A DNA stretch of 64,000 bases from Gryganskiella cystojenkinii. Lineage: Eukaryota > Mortierellomycota > Mortierellomycetes > Mortierellales > Mortierellaceae. Both the position numbers and the translations under genes were made by a program. The notes under the pieces are model-generated. The model saw nothing but the letters and a program-made list of their open reading frames with translations. It had not been told where the DNA came from and did not search any database. The stretch lies in assembly GCA_015852425.1 (NCBI GenBank), contig JAAAIG010000035.1, positions 30,922-94,921 on the forward strand, written 5' to 3'. Shown piece by piece: positions 45,070-58,974 of the stretch; position 1 is the first letter of the stretch; each line of letters opens with the position of its first letter.

Positions 45070-48000
45070 TTATTGCTGGCGACTGCTCTGGCGAGAATGG
45101 GTCAAAGCCCCGGCACGGGGCACGTTTTGGTTAATCGCTTGCAAAGCGTCAAGACTTAGTTCCGAGTAGAGATGAGACATAGGACGATCCCGTCGGTTCC
45201 TCCTCAGACCCGAACGAAGACCACGAATCGCATCGTCCAAGTGACCGTCCCGGATCGCAGCCACGGACATGCCGCTCGGTCCTGCGACAGTAGAGTTGTT
45301 CGAGATGAGACTATCGTTCGGTCGACGAATGTTGTTGTTGTTCTTGGATGCCTGTTGATTCTTCAGCCTTTTCTCCATGGTTTCGTTCTCCAACTGCGAC
45401 TTTTGGAGCTGCGTCGAGAACGATACAAGCATACCGAAAAAGTCTTCTGGCTTGGTTGTGACGGGGTCCTCGCCATAAAACATCAGCAAGAGTTTTAGGT
45501 CTTGTTCGAGTCCCTGGCCGACTTCTACGATCTTCTGGATACCTTCTTCGTTGGCATCCGCGAATTTCTATGAGAGCACCATAAATATCATGCAGTCGTC
45601 AGTATATATATAAAAGGCATAACCAGTAATCACATCTTAGGAATATCAAGAAGAATTAACTCTTGTAGGGACGAGAAAAATCTATTACCTCCATAACATC
45701 GACAAATTGGTCGTTCGGGGGTGAGATACGGATTCGGCGGAGGACCCTAATCTCCTCTCGGATTTGGTTCATACCCGCGACCAAGCTGTTGACAGAGCTC
45801 ATCAAGGTCTGGACCGAGATACGGGCTGCTGCCTCCAGATGAGGAACTTCTTCCAAGAACTTGAGCAGACTTGGATCCTTGGTCTGGATGGCTTTGGCTA
45901 GGTAGTGAAGCAGAGTGCTTGAGCCGGGCTTGACTCCCTCCACTCCCTTTGTATCGCGAATCTGAGAGGGATAAAAAAAAGGGTTGATGAGCATAACACA
46001 CGCAACATAATGTCCCTGTTGCTTGACAATAGATGTAGTGCTGACCTTGAGAAGAGCATCGAGCTGGAAACCATAAGCGTTTCCTCGGAAACTGGTCGCG
46101 TTCAAATGATTACCCATCAACAGCACAGTCTGTGCGTAGGTATAAAGAAGTAATGGAAAAAATCATCAGAATCCATATGTTCAGAAGATTGAGCGAACTT
46201 GAGTGAGATCCTCCAAAGAAACGTTGCATTTTTTTTTTACCTTCAGCAAACTCTTGAGTCGCCTTGAACTATGCAGTTCATCGATCGTTAGCCGAAGAAC
46301 ATCCATTTCCTGAAAAGAAAAAAAAATACAGTTGAAATTAGCAGGGTGGTTTGACCGAAGCTATCAAATAATGCTTTCGCAACTCAAAAACAAGGCTTAC
46401 GGGCTTAAGCTCGCCGACTTCGATCTCGAGTCGTCGTCTAAAGATCATTGAAGAAACTCTCTCGGATAGTCGAGGAATATCCATGATCTAATTTTGGAGA
46501 GAGAAAAAAAAGAGACGTTAGATTTTTCATCCAGAATGAGAGCTACTACAGGAAGGGTGAGGTGAGAAGAACTTACCTCACGATAGAACTTTTCAGCATT
46601 GCCCAAGAGTTCAAAGTCGCCGTCGTATTCTCTAATCATCTCGATCTGTCGAAAGAGCGAGAAAAAAAAGTTAGATCATAAACAGCACGTCCTCTTTCTT
46701 CTTTCACTCAAAAAATCAGAGAAATTTTACCTCGTCGCCGCTTGGAACGTATTGCTTAATAGCCTTCAAGTTCTCGATACTGAGCTTCTCGTCGAGAATC
46801 TCCATCAGGGCAATACGGATATCGGGGTAGGTCAACTTGATTCGACTCAACATGATGGCTATTTGTGATGGAGTCGTATGAAAATGTCAGATTTAGTACT
46901 AACGTATCAAAACGACTGGTAACTGTGCAACGAATACGTACCGATATTGTTTGCTCGGCTGTAACTGAACAGACTGACAGCCTTCTTCTTCTCTGATGCC
47001 GCAGTGGCGCCTATAAAGGATGACAGAAGGTGAACGAAGTTGAAGGGTGAAGAATTGTTAACATTAACGATTCATAGGCATACGTGAAAAATAGAACAGA
47101 CAATCAAGAGCGAAACGTTACTGGCGGCAACAACTTGATTCTTGCAGAAAAGCTCGTCAATCTCGGCATAGTCGAGATCGATGGTACCAAGATCCGAGGA
47201 TGGATCACAGATGTCTTTCCATACAGTCTGCGTAATCGTTCCCGTTGGAAGTTTGTTCCAGAACAATTGCTGTGAGAGATGAGGAAAGAGGCAGATATTA
47301 TCAGCAACCGACGGGGATCACCAAATCACTTGACAGCATTACATCTTTTTTTTTTACCTTCATGGGTCGTGTCGGTTTAACAGCTTGAGGGATGGCCATC
47401 GAAAGTGGTTTCAATGGATTCGCAGGTCGGCTACTGGTTAAGAAAACAGGCAAAGTCGGGTTCGCACCCTCAAGAGAAGCCGCTCCATGAGCACCGGGTG
47501 GGCCAGGTGGTGCTGGGGGTGGGGGAGGAGGGAGAGGTGCAGCTGGAGCCTTGAGAATCGATGGTCCGAAGGTGACACTGAGACCTGGAGGAGGCGGTGG
47601 TGGTGGTGGAGGAGGACCACCTGATGAAGTTGAAGGTGCTGCCGAAGATGTGGAGAGCAGTTGCACCGGTTGAGACGCTGGCACTGGCAACGAAACCGAT
47701 CTCTTGAGAATCGACTGACTCGGCCCTGCCAGCGAGCCAGCGATGAAGGGTGGAGGTGGTGGTGGTGGAGGCGGTGGTGGCCCGCCACCTGATCCTGCCG
47801 TTAGTACCGTTGGTACTGGTACTACTGTCGACTCTGGAGCAACCGCATTAGAAATCGGGTCATCCATGGGGGCAGAGGGTGGAGTAGGATTGAACTTTTG
47901 AGGACCACGAGAAGCAACAACGACTGGAGGTGGTGGTGGGGGTGGTGGAGCACTGCTATTGTTCTGCATAGGTGTTGCTTCGGTGACTGTGGTCGGTGGA

Positions 48001-51000
48001 AGTGGAGGTGGCGGTGGAGGTCCACTAGCAACCGGTGCTGCAGACGAGGCGGATGAGGATACAGATTCAGCAGGAGTGAGAGAGACTACTTGTGTCGCTA
48101 CTGATGTAGTTGGAGTCGTTGTAGAAGTGGCGGCAGCTGCTGCAGCGGCTGCAGCATAAATCTGGTGTTTAGGACCTGGAGGTGGAGGTGGTGGTGGCAA
48201 CGCTGGTCGACGTCCACCAGCACCAAGTACCCTGGTCTTTCCGGGCTGGGGTGACAGGACTGGCGAGAATAAGCTGCCGGTGGGTTTCTGTCGACCAGGA
48301 CTAGTCACCCCGAGATCTTGGATGTTGTTATCGGATATCGAGGGCGAGAGAGTGCCAGTGCCTTCTTCCTGCTCCTCATCGACCTCCTCTGCCTGCCATC
48401 CATTCGCAGAAAGAGCCCTGATCTGCAGTTTGAGGTTTCCGCGAGAGTGCGATCGATCCACGCGTCCATTCGCGAGCTGTTGTTGAGGCTGCTGCTGTTG
48501 ACCCTGATGTCCATGTGCCTGAGTAACACCATTGTTGTCATCGGCAAGCTTGGCGGCCTCCAAAATGAACAACGACTCCTTCAGTCCCTTGATGGTCTTC
48601 TCTCTTTCAGCGACCAAGGTCTGAAGCTCTTGGACTCGTTGGCTTACATCCTTGAGGTTTCCACGAAGGTTCAAGACTTCTTCAGTCGGAGTCAATCCGA
48701 CTACAGTTTCCTTACGCAACCGGTCGACTTCATCTCTGAGTTCGATAATTTCCTCGTCCTTTCTGGCGAGAGCTTCAAAGGTCTTGGAGAGCTGAAGGGA
48801 TCCCTCGGTCTGCTGGCTATTCTGGTTTGTTTGGTCATCCTCCGTCATTACAGTTAGACGCTCGCCCATCGCATTCTCGTACCTGGTACAAACGATCTGC
48901 AGAGCGCGTTTGAGGTAAGCAATCTCTTTCTGTCGTTCATCCGCAAGACTCGCCTGTTCCACAGTCTAAAAGATATATTTGACAAAAAAAATGTAACACG
49001 AGTAACACAAGTAACATATTAATAAAGCCATTAAGTAGCATGTCCTTCAACAACTTGGTCATATGTTTTGTTACCTTGTTCTTCAGAATCTGAACCTCGT
49101 TCATCATCGCGTTCCAGCGCGTGCTATCAATCTCCTTGGACCTCTCAGATTTGCGAGGTTCATCATCCTATAAGATCCAAACAGAAATGAGGTGGGAAGT
49201 TAGTCCATTGCTCCGAATCTATTCTATCTCTTTTTTTTCCATCATTCATTCTTTTTTCATGTTCTTTTTTCCTTCTAGGGAAAACCAAGGGACTCACAGT
49301 GACGAGCTCCGCTTTGTCCTTGTACTTCTTCTCCATTTTATCGATCGTCTCCCGCAACTGAGCGACTTCTTTCTCCTTCTGCACCAATCGTTGAACAACA
49401 CCGGCATGATTCTGGTAGATCGAGATGGGACCACAAACAAGCGCGACCAGGGTAAGGGTAGCGACACCGCACGCGAGAATTAACAGAGAAAGAGGAACGA
49501 TATAAGCCATATGTACAGGCGATGATGATGTAGTACGACGCATAACATTGGTGATTGAGGACGGGAAAAACGACATTACCTCGCGTTTCCCATAGGAAGT
49601 CGGAGGCTCACTGTCGGATCCATCACGAACATCCCTAATGGGTGACTTTGATTTTGTCTGTTGCTGTAACTGCTGGTATAGAACCAACTGTTGCTGCAGC
49701 TGAGCTCTGGACTCCTCAGTCTCATTGCGGGCCAACTCGAGATCCTTGCGCAATTTCTCATTATCGTCTCTCAAATCGTCGACATCTTGTCGCAGGCTGT
49801 CGATCTCGTAGTCGATATAACTGTGGCGACGACTTGACATGAGCGAGAGCGACGAGACAGAGGCCGCAGAGGACGAATTAGCGTTGGCACCACCGGTATT
49901 GGGATCGGCAGAAGCAGCGGAGAAGGCAAGAATGGCGCCACGCTTGCCGACAATATGTTGGATTCCCTCCAAAAACTCGTCCTGGCAGATTGCCCAGTCC
50001 TTCTCAAGATTTCGCATCTGGAAGACGCGCTCACTGAACTTTTCGACGATCGTCCAGAGGTCCTCCTTGAATTGACTGTTCACATAAGACCGAGGATAAT
50101 GAATAGAAGGAGCGTTCAGTCAACATAAAAAGATAATGTTTCGTCAATATGCAAAAGCATGATGCCGCAGGCGGGAAGAAAAAAACTTACGGGCTTTGCC
50201 TGGAGATCAAGTCTTGGTGTTCATGATTCTCATCGTCATCGTCTGACTCTTCTTGGGTAAGGGTCGATACGGCCGCATTGGCGTACTGCTGCAAGGTCTT
50301 GACGATCCTCGGGTACATCTCATCCTCCACAGGACCAAGACCAGTGATTGTCTTTGTAAGCTCAGACTCCTCAGATCTGGTGGCAAGAAAAGGAAAAAGA
50401 CGGAACGGTTACTTTGGAGAACTTTTAGACTCATGATTCATTCTATATCATTCATATTCGTCACTTTTCTTACGCTTTTTCTCCTTCTGACTGTTGAATC
50501 AATGAGGACTCATAAGCCCGTTGCTCCTGAAGATCTACCCAGTCCTCATGTTGTTCGTCCTCATAAACATTGATCTGGATCAGCAACGATTCCGGTGGGG
50601 ATTGTGCCTGCAGGGTCTTGAACACGTCCTCGAGACCACGTCTCCTCAACTCGTTCCTGAGCGAGATTCTGTCCGTCAACAAGGACGGCGAATTCGCCAG
50701 AGCGTTCATTAAACTCAGGCAGGCTGTTTTGTACTCCCATTCGAAACTCTCTTGAGGCTCTCCTGCAGTAGGGTCTTGTTCACTGACAGTGGCCGTGCCC
50801 AGAGATTGAACCAAGTACTCGAATCGGAATCGTTCCTCATGTGCAACCCTGAAATCTGACAGTGCCATCAAGACTAATCGATGTGATTCTGGAGACATGA
50901 CACAGAGCGCTGCGAGGACCTCAGCGACCTTTGTCCGGAGTTTGCTGTTGGACGTGTAAAGACAGTAGGAAATATGGGCCACCAAGGACGGTGAACGAAG

Positions 51001-53485
51001 CACTTGGGCGAAACCAGGCTACGTAAAATGGAGGACAAATGTTGTTAGTAACTTAACCTCCTTGGCATAGAGGCAAAAGCGAACTCGAAAAAAGAAGGGT
51101 GACTCCGTACCTCTGTGTTCATGAGGACTCGAAGACATTGAACACACTCGGACTGCAAGGTTTCATCTAGATCATTAGCCTTGCCGGCTCGTTTTTTGAT
51201 CGTCGTCCTGTCCAAAACTGTCTCCAAAGCTCGAAATCCTCGACTATCTAGGAACTGACGAATCCAAGACAACTTTGCAGTAGCGAGTGCAACTCGAAGT
51301 GCCTGTAGTTGTTTGACAAGATTCTTTTGTGTGGTTGTCCTAGAGTAATAAATAAATTAGGCAACGCGGTTTGTAAGAAACTAAAAAAAAAAATTGGCGA
51401 CTTTTCGTCGGGATTGCATTCTGATGCACTTACTTATTCATGAGCTGGTCAACATAATACTGAGGCGAATCGTCATTCGGCTCATCGATCGAGGACGTGT
51501 CATTCTGTTGCGCAGCTCCGAACCAACTCGACCAAAGAGATCCAGCGGCAGCCATGGTCGGAGACATGGGTCTCTCCGAGCCAGCAGTGGTTTGCTTTGG
51601 TGGCGAGCCATCCGATCCGTCGTAGGAACCTGCAAGGCTCGACCAAGAGGAGTATCGCGAATGAAGTCTGTTGCTGCTCGGATTCGATCCTGCCGCGGGT
51701 GGCTGCGGCGATGGAGTATCAGGTTCAATGAATGAAACTCGAGAAGAGATCGAGCCAATAAACCTGTTCCTGCTAATAGCATTCCTGGATGCAGTCGCAG
51801 CTGCGCTAATGCTGTTGGATCCCTGTTGGATCGAGTATGGATCCGGGGACACGATCCGTTCCTTTTGCTCTTTCTGCATCTGAAGCTGTTGATTGGAACC
51901 GATCAACGCAATACGTTTCTCTCGACTGAACTGCATCATCGCATCGATATCCTTGATATTGAGGTCATGCTATTTTTTGACAATAATTTGTTAGAGATCA
52001 CTCGTTGTAATATCGATCGACCTGTAGTTAAGTATGAAGAAAAGGAAGCGATTCATTACCAACAATGCGACAAAAGTCTCGTTTAACTCCTCGTCCGACA
52101 TGTTGTGGACCTCAGATCCGGCGCCACTCTCGAAAGCAGTTGGTCTAGAGATCAAACTAGGCGAACTCACACCTCCAATCATCGAGAACCGTTTCTTGGG
52201 ATCCGGCGCCAACCACCCGCCTATTGACGAGGGATCAAAGAAAGAGCTCAGCCTCGATCCAGCAATCATGCTTTGCCGTCGATTTTGAGCCTTCCTGCTA
52301 CTTGCATCCGTTCCGTGGTCTGAATCGTTGACGCCGCCCATGTTCTGGAAAGAAGGGTGGTGAATCGAAGTCGGAGCGATGGGAATCGGAGCCGAGATCT
52401 CTCGACTTGGCGGAGTAGGAGAAGCTGGGGAACCGCCAAAGAGACCGTAGACCGCCATGGATAGGGGTCGAGTTGCTGTCCATCCCTTTGTGATCCTGGA
52501 CGTGACAGATTCGACTTTGGAGATCCAAGAGTCAGGGACAGTAAAGAGGAAATGGTAATCCTTGATCTGATGCATAAGAAGTAACTCTCTGTTCTCTTTT
52601 AGAAGTTCATAGGGACTCTCTTCATCAGTAAGTTGCCTCTCCTCTGCAAGGGGGGTTATTTTTGTCATATGAAGAGAGTGGACAGTTGAACGGAAAAATA
52701 AAGTGTGTCCAAAGAGAAAACCTTATCAGTTAGTGATCCTTACGTGTTCAAGCTTTTGTAGTAACAAAATCAGTTGTTTGCCTCTCTTTGTCTCTTTTCT
52801 TTTAGGTAGCCCCTTATGGCAATCTAGTTTTCATTACCTTCAATGCCATCTGCATTGACCTTGACCTGTGAGAACACAAAATCGGCCGAGGTCGGTATTC
52901 GAGCTGCGCCAGAGTTGCTGTTGTTGTCGGCATTGTCCAATGCCTTCAAGCCCATCTCCCGTGTGACAATATCCAGGATCTGTCGAACATTCATGGTTGG
53001 CAAAATATGAATTTGTCGACAGTGCGCCTCCGGAACAGTGGGAACATGTCGAAAGACCACGGGTAACGTATATTGTAGATTTACAATTTTGAGAACTGTC
53101 GCATCTGGGTTTTTCAGAAGCTCTTGATGTCGTTCCTGAATCTCCTTGATCGGTGTGTCGAACGACAAGGCACCTTGATCCAGTGCAAAGAGCTCACGGT
53201 AACTCAAGGTTGCTAACAAAGTGCAAAAAGAGTCAGTCCGCTGGGTCAATCTCTCAGTACCAAGGGTCTGTCCTCAACCTTGCTTCACGAGTGATATTCG
53301 ATTTCTCCCCACTCACTCTGTCGAGGCATAGCGACTTCAACGAACGCCCAGTGACCGTCACTGTAGGTTTCACTATCGATGGCCATGGCCGTCAACAAGT
53401 CACCTATGGTCGCATCCTCGTCCAAAAAGGTTGCCTCCTTGAAGTGGTCCGGGGTCAAGACCTGTATGATATCCTGTTTCCCCAT
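45070..53485 (-). CDS. Diaphanous-type formin with an N-terminal Ras-association-like domain
   Basis: Twenty exons: 53485-53317, 53212-52838, 52643-52060, 51969-51434, 51339-51111, 51018-50474, 50376-50191, 50075-49580, 49411-49298, 49167-49075, 48965-47358, 47269-47122, 47010-46942, 46858-46731, 46645-46577, 46487-46401, 46309-46241, 46129-46046, 45961-45689 and 45567-45070, total 2119 aa. Formins nucleate and elongate unbranched actin. Residues ~100-221 look like an RA domain (ERQLTDEESPYELL then HFLFTVPDSW), preceded by a shorter ubiquitin-like stretch. The GBD/FH3 starts near 370 (FVALLHDLNIKDIDAMMQF), followed by armadillo-like helices and coiled coil (~900-1250). FH1 has many runs of 5-10 prolines. 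FH2 (~1640-2000) begins QLFWNKLPTGTI and includes MGNHLNATSFRGNAYGFQLDAL. A DAD-like DDAIRGLRSGLRRNRR lies at ~2064-2079. Frame is continuous through all junctions. Confidence 0.9.
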
Positions 53486-54192: not shown

Positions 54193-57100
54193 TCAGTAAC
54201 AGTCGAGTACATTGTTGCCATCGTTTGGCTTCTCGCTCTCGGCCATCACTACATCCTCGACACGCTCAACATTCAAGACTTCCTCGTAGAGCTGCTCCAC
54301 CGACGTTGAAGCATCGAGCCTCTCAAAGTCCAAACCGCACAAGACCTCGTAAAAGGCCGCATGAGGATGCATGCTCGGTTGCGTGTCTTGATCCGAGGGG
54401 GAAGACGATCCATTTGTATCACTGCTAATGGCAAACCGCTTCCGCTGTAACAATCCTCCCTCGATCTTCACACCAGACGGACTGGTCTGAGCCTTCGTCG
54501 ATGCTTCAAATGTCATGTCGGGTCCCAAACGCTTCTCAATCGACGCCTTGATCTTCTTCAGAGTCTCGACGCTTGTTAGTCGTACCATTCTCGAGGAGTC
54601 CCTTGATGCCTCGACCAAGATTTGATCTCCCTTAATATCGTAAAACCACCATGTCGACGGTCTTGCTGGTGCCGCTTCTTCTAACGCTTCCCGATCTGAA
54701 TCCTTGATACGTTTTGATGCTCGAATTCTGTAATCTGCTCTCTCGTCCAATGCAACACTATGTTCCCATACTGCGGCAAGGAACTCGCAGGCACGAATAC
54801 GGACTTCCCAGTCCGCATCATCCAAGGTCAATCGCGACATGAAATGGGCACTAAAAGTATGCAAATTATTGAGTTACAGAGTCAATTAAACCTTAGGACT
54901 CGGTCGCTCCCATCGAAAACATGTTGCGAGGACTTACTCAACAAAGAGGTCAGTTCCATTGACCATCAGGACAGTGCCGGATTCACGCTCGCTCACAAGA
55001 CAAATCATAGCCTCCAGAACCGCTCGGCGTACAAACGCTTCACTGTCTCGAATCAAAGTTGGAAGCTGGGCACTCAGTCGTTCGTCGAGGTTCTTTTCGC
55101 ACATTCCTTTCCATCCTCGAGGGTCTCTCATGATGACCTCAAATGCATGGACGCTTGCTGCTCGAACATAAGCCTCCTCGTCTGAAAGCTTTTGAAAAAT
55201 TGATTCTAGCATATCGTACTTGAGTGCCCATTCGACTCCATGCTCTGGTCCTCCCTACATCATATATGTATGTATGTTAGTTATAGTCAATAGAATCCAT
55301 ATCGGTGGCATATTAAAAACAAAGACAACTTACTGAGGAGAAAAGGCTGCCGATATATTCAACTACATTATCTCGAACATCCCATTCCATGTCATAAAGT
55401 TTCAATCCAAGGCCATTTGAAAGGTCCTGGCCTACTTTCTAGAGTTCACAAGTCACAAGATGCGTTAATGTAATTGTCAGCAGCGTACAACATTATAAAG
55501 CGTCATTTGGATCGTATCGTACCTCCTGTAGCAGAATCTTGCCAAGAATGCTATCTGCGAAAAACTCTTGAATAGCGGTCAGGATAAGCCTAAGGGACGT
55601 ACTTCCTGTACCTGGACGCTGGATGAGGCCCAGAATGACCTTCATGGCGCTGGAAAAGAGCTGTTCGTCCAATAGCTTTCCATTCTGCACCTTGGTCTTC
55701 AAAACAACCGGCAGAGTCGCCAAGCATGATTTGAAAACTCGCTGATCCGAGCGGAGTTTGTGATCAAATAGGACCGAAAGTGTGATGGCTATGGCCTCAC
55801 TCTTCTCCACAGACTCTTGGAACAAACTCGCCAGACTCTGCAACGCCTTGAATGCCGAAAGAACGATGGTTTTTGGTAATGTACCTCCTCGTGATGCAGC
55901 ACCCCGAAGAGGCTTTTGGCGACCGTGTACTCGGACGACGTTTTGAAATCCGGTGGCATTGAGAAGCGAGGCAACCTTTCCAGAACCGGGTATGACGACT
56001 ATGTCTACCTTAGGACGGTTAGCAGTAGAAGCGTCGGATGTGTTGAAGTCCTGCATGGCTTGAATGATCCAAAGCACAATAGCCAAGATCGTCTCCTTGA
56101 ATTGAGTGCCTTTTCCGTTCATTTCCTTGCTGTGACTGAGAGGCATAATCATGGTATCAATAATTCCTGTCGCCACATGCAGCGCCTTTAAGGACTCTGT
56201 TTGCTTCAACAGTGAGCATACTTCATTCTCTAACATGAAGTTGAAGCCTAACGTAAGAAAAAGTGGATTAGAAATCACGTAAAATAGTTTCGCACAAAGG
56301 TTTGTGTTCGTAGAGACATCTCACTTACAGTCCACCAATGCTTCGTCCTTCGACTGATCCATATCCATGATGTCCGAGTTATCGGCGCCTCTCCCGAGAA
56401 CGGCCAGAGGATCGGCGGCGGAGTCCAGAAGAGTCGACAACACATCCAGTGCGCGGCTCCGGACAAGACGTGAGTCATCCATGAGGACCTCCATGTATGA
56501 ATAAAACTGTATTGAATATGATCGAGATTAGCTATCATTTTATAGAAAGGCAACGATGTGGACAACCTATGTCCGGATAGTGATAAACCTACTAGTTGAC
56601 TTTGTCGGAGGAAGGCAGCTCCTCGATCTGACCGGGTGTTCGTCACCATCCAAAGAAACTCGAGACCCGCAAGACGATTCCTTTCTGAGGTTTGATCCCT
56701 CATCATGCTCTCGATGAGCTGGTACAAGGCGATAGACTCTAGCAGAGTATCCATCAGGGTATCGTGCGCCGTAGTTTTCTCCCCTCCTGTACTTCTGTTT
56801 TCGATAATAGCCACCAAGAACTGACATGCAGCCGTGAGTACCTATGTTAACAAACAAGGCATTAGGTTTTCCTTAGACACTACAAATATTCTTTAGCACA
56901 ATATCTTATCTTTGGTAGGTGCTTACATAGGTACTTTCGTCCTTGAGTGCTGAAGATATCATTTCCGCACATTTTTTTGACGAAAGGAGCCTGTATATTG
57001 ACAATGAAAAAGTTAGACTCTAATGAAGACGAAAGGGCTACGCACTCTCTGCGGTTTCGACGCGAACTTACCATTGGGCACCTCTGTCGTATTGAACAGC

Positions 57101-57679
57101 CCGTTCAAGAGCAAACCAACATGAATATCTCGTCAGAGCCTCTTCACCAAAAGTATTGTCGATCACATACTGAAGAATGGAGGGATACTTTGTCTCCAGT
57201 AGACCCCAAACTGAATTTGATCCTTCCTTCCCGTTTCTCTCTGTGTCGTTCTGCTGGTTGTCATATTTCATAAGGAATCCCAGTAACCGCAGAGCCACAC
57301 AGCTGACGCGGTAGTCCTGATCTGGCGACAGGCAGTCCTACGAACACAAATATCATGCGTTAGTCCTCCGCAGTCTTTTTGCTCTATCTCTCTCTTTGGA
57401 ACCTGACTTGGTGGAAATAAAATAAAGTACCTGCAAGACGTCGAGAATGACCCAGTCGTTGAGCATGGTCCGCATGAGCTGGGGATCGGCTTGAGCAATA
57501 AATGCAGACACATAAGAGAGGACCTTTTCGTGCCTCGTGTCGTCGACAATGTTCTTGGGCATGTGAGGCAGGGTCACAACGACCCTCCTCAGTTCTTCTA
57601 GAGTCTCCTCCGAGTTCGCGTTGGGGACGTTGTGGACCATAGTAAATGATTGACGAACAGGAACAGCATGTGCATTCAT
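54193..57679 (-). CDS. BRAT1: BRAT1-like HEAT-repeat protein
   Basis: Nine exons: 57679-57431, 57337-57072, 56990-56927, 56841-56593, 56506-56329, 56247-55523, 55438-55334, 55254-54938 and 54850-54193, total 936 aa. Nearly all of it is HEAT-type helical repeat. The last third matches the order of repeat cores I recall from human BRAT1: MEWDVRDNVVEY, DEEAYVRAASVHAF, DSEAFVRRAVLEAM, then DADWEVRIRACEFL. After a conserved FYDI segment comes FYEVLCGLDFERLDA, and the protein ends LDCY. The DCY end is also that of human BRAT1 as I remember it. Animal BRAT1 binds INTS11, the Integrator endonuclease, with its C-terminal tail reaching the active site; it is also linked to DNA-damage signalling. The fungal role is inference. 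The exon 4 donor is GTAGGT; other donors are ordinary. Expression signals were not recognised. Confidence 0.83.
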
Positions 57680-57921: not shown

Positions 57922-58974
57922 TTAAAGAGTCACTGTCTCGTGCTATCAATGAACAAGAAAACAATAAATGGGTTAGTTGTTCAGTTCTGGAAATCAACGC
58001 GGTAGTCCAAGATACATACAAAGATCAATTGCAATGCGCGTTAAAAAATATTTACCTCGTATTCCTTCTCGAACATATCCTCCATATCCTCTTCATCCTC
58101 ACTCTGGTCAGAGACATACTCGCGCTCCTCATCCTCGTCCTCCTCCTCCTCTTCGTCTTCTGACTGGGAATCATCCTCGTCCGTCTGATCACTGTCGACC
58201 TCGAGTGCACCCTTCTCACCTTCCAGGATCTCCTTCCAGACATCCTCGTGTACGTTCAAGGGAGCATCGCCATAGGCATGTGACTTCAAGCGGTCCAAGA
58301 GCTCCTTCTCAATTGCCTTGTCCAATCTCGCTGCAGCTTCGGCCTTGACCTCTCTCCGTGACTCACGACGGTCAATCTTCTTCTTGATGCCGACCAACTT
58401 GGGTCTCTCGTCCGCCTTGAGCTTGAGCTTTCTCATCTTGATGAGGTACTGCGTGATCTTTGTGAGACGTTGCTTGCACTTGTGAACCGAAAAATTGGGC
58501 CAGTAAATCAACTCCTTGTCAATCTGTTCCAGTGCCTGGGCATAGTTCTTGGACAACTTGATCTTCTCCCACATCTTGGCGGGCATATGTGCTCTCTCGG
58601 GAGTCTTGACAAACAGGTAGATCACACCGTTCTGTTCACGGACCGTAGCATAGCGAGAGTTGGCGAGTGGGCAGGATTGACGGTTGCAGAGTCCAGTGGC
58701 GTTGTATTCGTTCCTGCAAAAGTTTCCTGTTGCTGTTCTATAAGAATGACAAGAAATAGTTTTAAAAAGGAGGTTAATATCAAAACCTCAACTGCCTTTT
58801 TTTGTTTGTTTGTTGAACCTCGTTATATATTATCTCGGCGTGCGGAGAAAGCAAGTGGGTTGGTAATGGAGTGGATGCAAGACGAGGCGATGGAGAAGGA
58901 GAGACGACGTACTTGACTTTGTAGGAACAGAACTGCTGGTTGATCACCTGCCAGATGACTTCGTCGGTGTTCAT
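57922..58974 (-). CDS. MAK16: MAK16 ribosome-biogenesis factor
   Basis: Three exons: 58974-58913, 58737-58056 and a terminal 57942-57922, total 254 aa. Mak16 is a nucleolar protein needed for 27S pre-rRNA maturation and 60S assembly. The start [21 protein letters not shown], the Cys-containing [23 protein letters not shown] and the [11 protein letters not shown] segment are diagnostic. The tail is a long Asp/Glu run. The last exon encodes HETVTL and a stop; it is supported by a GAG|GTAAAT donor, a CTAAC branch-like site, a T-rich tract and TTGATAG acceptor. Reading through instead would end the protein three residues after the donor at 58041. The EYEHET end resembles the EYE-x-E tail of other Mak16 proteins. 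Confidence 0.92.

Follow-up and report, generated by a model that had tools for sequence, protein, structure and literature searches.

A likely fungal orthologue of BRAT1 that keeps the terminal Asp-Cys-Tyr in Gryganskiella cystojenkinii

The fungus Gryganskiella cystojenkinii (Mortierellaceae) has a gene that is very likely an orthologue of BRAT1, the Integrator assembly factor. The gene lies in a stretch of 64,000 nucleotides (hereafter the window), which spans positions 30922-94921 of contig C386; the assembly totals 35.0 Mb in 1050 contigs. Its longest reading encodes a HEAT-repeat protein of 936 amino acids that ends in Leu-Asp-Cys-Tyr (LDCY). An earlier, sequence-only reading of the window, made without database searches, had proposed a BRAT1-like protein, and BRAT1 rather than another HEAT family is indeed the best match in sequence and profile comparisons and for the predicted structure of a relative. 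Orthology is further supported by motifs shared with animal BRAT1 at both the N- and C-termini and by conservation of the tail among fungi.

Human BRAT1 is the best match of the single sequence in the PDB (E-value 7.6e-7), followed by a designed repeat protein (0.003). When the search was run with a profile of 35 members (A2, comprising the 36 proteins of the fungal protein search with P0012 left out), BRAT1 was matched at 1e-13 and the next entries, designed alpha-Reps, at 6.5e-4. The three late-repeat motifs from which the relationship was originally recognized were located in the protein as DDADWEVR, RDSEAFVRRAV and DEEAYVRAA, and the PDB sequence and profile matches agree that the late repeats follow the same order as in human BRAT1. 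For the relative P0036 from Calcarisporiella, with 25% identity (alignment A1) to the NCBI model of the Gryganskiella protein (P0001), BRAT1 is the sole PDB match (6.7e-7). Region 505-760 of P0036, searched against 5.8 billion proteins, returned just seven, one of them P0036 itself. Four others are fungal, from Chlamydoabsidia, Parasitella, Radiomyces and Absidia (4e-17 to 1e-13), and two are animal BRAT1s, one from a bat, annotated as ‘integrator complex assembly factor BRAT1’ (0.07), and one from a fish (10). The four Mucorales belong to Mucoromycota, Calcarisporiella to Calcarisporiellomycota and G. cystojenkinii to Mortierellomycota. A single pairwise comparison of the Calcarisporiella protein with bat BRAT1 gave an E-value of 4e-8, and fungal and animal BRAT1 profiles aligned over 287 columns with a probability of 97.9% and an E-value of 4e-13. 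As a control, the window protein was compared with the bat and fish BRAT1s after shuffling of its residues; none of 40 shuffles exceeded 0.9 bits, compared with 21.6 and 21.2 bits for the real protein. Pfam reported HEAT and HEAT_2 above their cut-offs and nothing more specific, and NCBIfam assigned no family to P0002 or P0036, the two relatives submitted to it. A strict reciprocal search, with the human BRAT1 segment 443-658 against this genome and no control genome alongside, found no match.

Structure comparison leads to the same family. Human BRAT1 (BRCA1-associated ATM activator 1; PDB 8uib, 8r22, 8r23, 8r2d), a HEAT solenoid, ranked first for the AlphaFold model of a fungal relative with both Foldseek and VIA-align. 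The match covers some 650 residues but at about 20% identity; VIA-align gave root-mean-square deviations of 6.8-6.9 for BRAT1 and 12-18 for other long alignments (about 590-650 residues). Drosophila CG7044 (dBRAT1; PDB 8uic, an entry whose title describes a complex with IntS11) was ranked sixth by Foldseek, and was absent from the PDB sequence and profile matches and from the 50 VIA-align matches listed. The linker and tail have low confidence in the structure model of the relative P0002.

Loss of the last three residues among close relatives had been named beforehand as an observation that could overturn the assignment; these residues are instead widely conserved. Among 40 fungal proteins (the 36 from the fungal protein search and the four Mucorales from the P0036-region search), 34 keep the Asp-Cys-Tyr tail, with 31 ending in LDCY and three from Podila in LDCYA. 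The other six comprise two sequences labelled partial (P0019, P0029), two short models (P0032 and P0034, with 616 and 564 amino acids) and two that diverge a few residues before the end (P0012, P0035). P0012 comes from Dissophora ornata, and because another model of that species, P0002, has the tail, we suspect that the end of P0012 is mis-spliced. A count of 34 out of 34 for the tail column is circular, as it took in only the sequences ending in the motif. By eye, the stretch of 20 residues leading up to the tail in Calcarisporiella and the four Mucorales does not resemble that of Mortierellaceae, yet LDCY is still there. Because 34 of the 40 relatives keep the tail, including those with a dissimilar linker, it is, judging from the alignments, more than a chance ending. 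DCY is also invariant in an alignment of nine sequences (seven fungal, one bat and one fish), while the preceding residue differs, being Leu in the fungal copies, with EADCY closing the bat and VVDCY the fish protein. Human BRAT1 ends in Asp-Cys-Tyr as well. At the other end, a DDTxxEK(V/L)L motif occurs in 33 of the 40 fungal proteins (30 with DDT, three with DDA) and, as DDTxxEKLL, in the bat and fish proteins; of the seven without it, five models begin downstream and two (P0018, P0025) stop inside the motif or directly behind it.

The LDCYA endings of Podila P0013, P0022 and P0024 carry an extra Ala after the Tyr, and those of Podila P0015 and P0020 are plain LDCY. The extended tails amount to a natural experiment on the importance of a free terminal Tyr.

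In human and fly, BRAT1 guards INTS11 by means of its tail; Lin et al. are said to have located this tail in the INTS11 active site, with the Cys on the metals, in Mol Cell in 2024. The BRAT1 of G. cystojenkinii is probably a chaperone of INTS9-INTS11; that it binds these partners, and that its tail binds metal, we infer. With the INTS9-INTS11 heterodimer cradled by the solenoid, the flexible tail would reach into the INTS11 active site and place its Cys on the metals. INTS11 would thereby be stabilized and held inactive up to its incorporation into Integrator. Human BRAT1 binds and stabilizes INTS9/INTS11, according to sections of PMC9418311. An analogous arrangement appears in sections of PMC11904178, where Cys144 of UBE3D (Ipa1 in yeast) is placed in the active site of CPSF73, likewise a metallo-beta-lactamase nuclease, with Lin et al. 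as the source cited. UBE3D and Ipa1 differ from BRAT1 in belonging to the HECT_2 family and in having CPSF73 as their client, and a separate HECT_2 gene of this type is found in G. cystojenkinii on contig C196.

The sequence-only reading had suggested looking for INTS11 and INTS9 in the same genome. INTS9 was found, as was INTS4; INTS11 was not. The INTS11 query was 100% identical to a chimpanzee entry over residues 300-600. Human INTS9 matched neighbouring exons on contig C342, the best three with 55%, 35% and 44% identity and E-values of 1.9e-12, 8e-17 and 1e-18, and for one of these C342 exons all PDB matches are INTS9 chains (7.8e-20). A possible C-terminal piece of INTS9 was noted by eye at L019:4125-4421. 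Human INTS4 matched exons on contig C583 (best E-value 1.9e-20), with INTS4 chains as the first PDB match of the best exon (1.4e-21). INTS4 is itself a HEAT-repeat protein; we rejected it as the identity of the gene studied here, and the two genes are separate. Sections of PMC9006982 describe INTS4 as a subunit of the cleavage module together with INTS9-INTS11. CPSF73 lies on contig C154 and CPSF100 on C319; the exon on C154 reaches 397 bits with human CPSF73 and no more than 178 bits with any INTS11 chain.

The failure to find INTS11 in this assembly, by searches of uneven power, formally counts against the proposal, since its absence from the genome had been named in advance as grounds for rejection. 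Queries with human INTS11 and with an Arabidopsis INTS11-like protein matched CPSF73 (best stretches 40% and 38%) and CPSF100, with no INTS11 in either case, and scanning the genomic DNA for sequences encoding DCGMHMG, with one mismatch allowed, found nothing. The Beta-CASP and Lactamase_B_6 models detected only CPSF73 and CPSF100 exons; these null answers are weak because both models also missed INTS9, which is present. The RMMBL model retrieved one CPSF73 stretch, below cut-off, while models for IntS11_C and for the INTS1 RPB2-binding domain, run without a positive control, had no match in the genome. Residues 300-600 of INTS11, compared with all proteins, gave named matches from mammals and birds among the best 120 of 1625, which is uninformative on fungi. 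Comparable queries did recover INTS9, INTS4 and CPSF73, which makes it very probable that this assembly lacks INTS11. We consider a gap in the assembly likelier than true loss, because INTS9 and INTS4 have been kept.

If INTS11 has been lost, the gene could descend from BRAT1 while the tail of its product has turned to guarding CPSF73, a different nuclease of the metallo-beta-lactamase type. We regard this as very unlikely, even though CPSF73 and CPSF100 are clear where INTS11 was not found, and UBE3D, a partner of CPSF73, provides a comparable use of Cys. The HECT_2 gene means that CPSF73 probably has its own guard, INTS4 is present together with INTS9, which pairs with INTS11 in known Integrators, and a single fragmented assembly is poor evidence that a gene has been lost. 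A further scenario, which we would also be surprised to see upheld, is that Mortierellaceae keep BRAT1, INTS9 and INTS4 and have lost INTS11, with Integrator cutting by means of CPSF73 under guard of the BRAT1 tail.

BRAT1 is named after a role with BRCA1 and ATM, and 24 of the 36 fungal relatives already carry the NCBI name ‘BRCA1-associated ATM activator 1’. A BRAT1 orthologue acting mainly in DNA-damage signalling and not on Integrator would suit that name; there is little chance that this is so, as the conserved tail corresponds to the part of animal BRAT1 that touches INTS11, and sections of PMC9418311 report patient cells with BRAT1 V62E that have no ATM activation defect and tie BRAT1 to INTS11 stability. 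That the gene belongs to some other HEAT family (importin, SF3B1, INTS4 or cohesin-like) and has its tail by coincidence is scarcely credible, given that BRAT1 leads whether sequences, profiles or structures are compared, that the shuffles score so low, and that fungal and animal BRAT1 have two end motifs in common.

Through automatic annotation, fungal BRAT1 orthology is thus already in the databases, and what we describe does not amount to a new type of system. The literature searched, with most subscription papers lying outside it, yielded no report of a fungal BRAT1, and sections of PMC9525679 have no bearing on fungi. Integrator is said to be restricted to metazoans in a 2022 review (PMC9006982) and is described as conserved across metazoans in PMC9418311. 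INTS9, INTS4 and a same-tailed BRAT1 in this early-branching fungus, and the tail in two other fungal phyla, would place the INTS11 guard in the animal-fungal ancestor, so that it is probably as old as the animal-fungal split and older than animals. If true, this would suggest that the work of BRAT1 for Integrator goes back further than a name taken from BRCA1 and ATM would lead one to expect, and deep conservation would mark the last residues as a functional core. Fungi would then offer systems for studying the BRAT1 mechanism.

The proposed reading frame ending in LDCY and a stop was confirmed on the minus strand from 57679 to 54193, with nine exons separated by GT..AG introns (Table 1). Many relatives begin with MVH.., corresponding to residue 14 of the 936-amino-acid reading, as does P0001 (hypothetical protein BGZ83_006373, G. 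cystojenkinii; 802 amino acids). Because these models begin at the second Met (57640), a protein of 923 amino acids appears likelier than one of 936 starting at 57679. P0001 is 100% identical to our spliced model across its 802 residues, and is without 110 amino acids from exons 2 and 3 and 11 from the end of exon 7, both of which are present in D. ornata P0002.

Table 1. Coordinates of the BRAT1-like gene in the window and of Integrator genes on other contigs
Feature	Position	Strand	Basis or remark
BRAT1-like gene, 936-amino-acid reading	54193..57679	-	nine exons, GT..AG introns
Exon 1 from the likelier start Met (57640); in-frame ATG upstream at 57679	57431..57640	-	relatives, start of P0001
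DDTRHEKVL motif near N-terminus	57518..57544	-	bat and fish BRAT1 counterparts DDTCLEKLL and DDTSLEKLL
Exon 2, absent from P0001	57072..57337	-	
Exon 3, absent from P0001	56927..56990	-	
Exon 4	56593..56841	-	splicing
Exon 5	56329..56506	-	splicing
Exon 6	55523..56247	-	splicing
Exon 7, last 11 residues absent from P0001	55334..55438	-	
Exon 8, HEAT repeats with DEEAYVRAA and DSEAFVRRAV	54938..55254	-	
Exon 9, DDADWEVR repeat, linker and tail	54193..54850	-	
Conserved HEAT core, residues 530-742 (936-amino-acid reading), matching human BRAT1 443-658	54778..55666	-	introns inside span
Terminal Leu-Asp-Cys-Tyr	54196..54207	-	
INTS9 gene, several matching exons	C342:31024-32644 (L019)		
INTS4 gene	C583:23979-25964		

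Two further genes were also noted on the minus strand of the window. A neighbouring Mak16 gene, with Pfam matches to Ribosomal_L28e and Mak16, is located at 58041-58787, and a probable formin gene, named by eye only from polyproline stretches in its frames, at 47301-52722.
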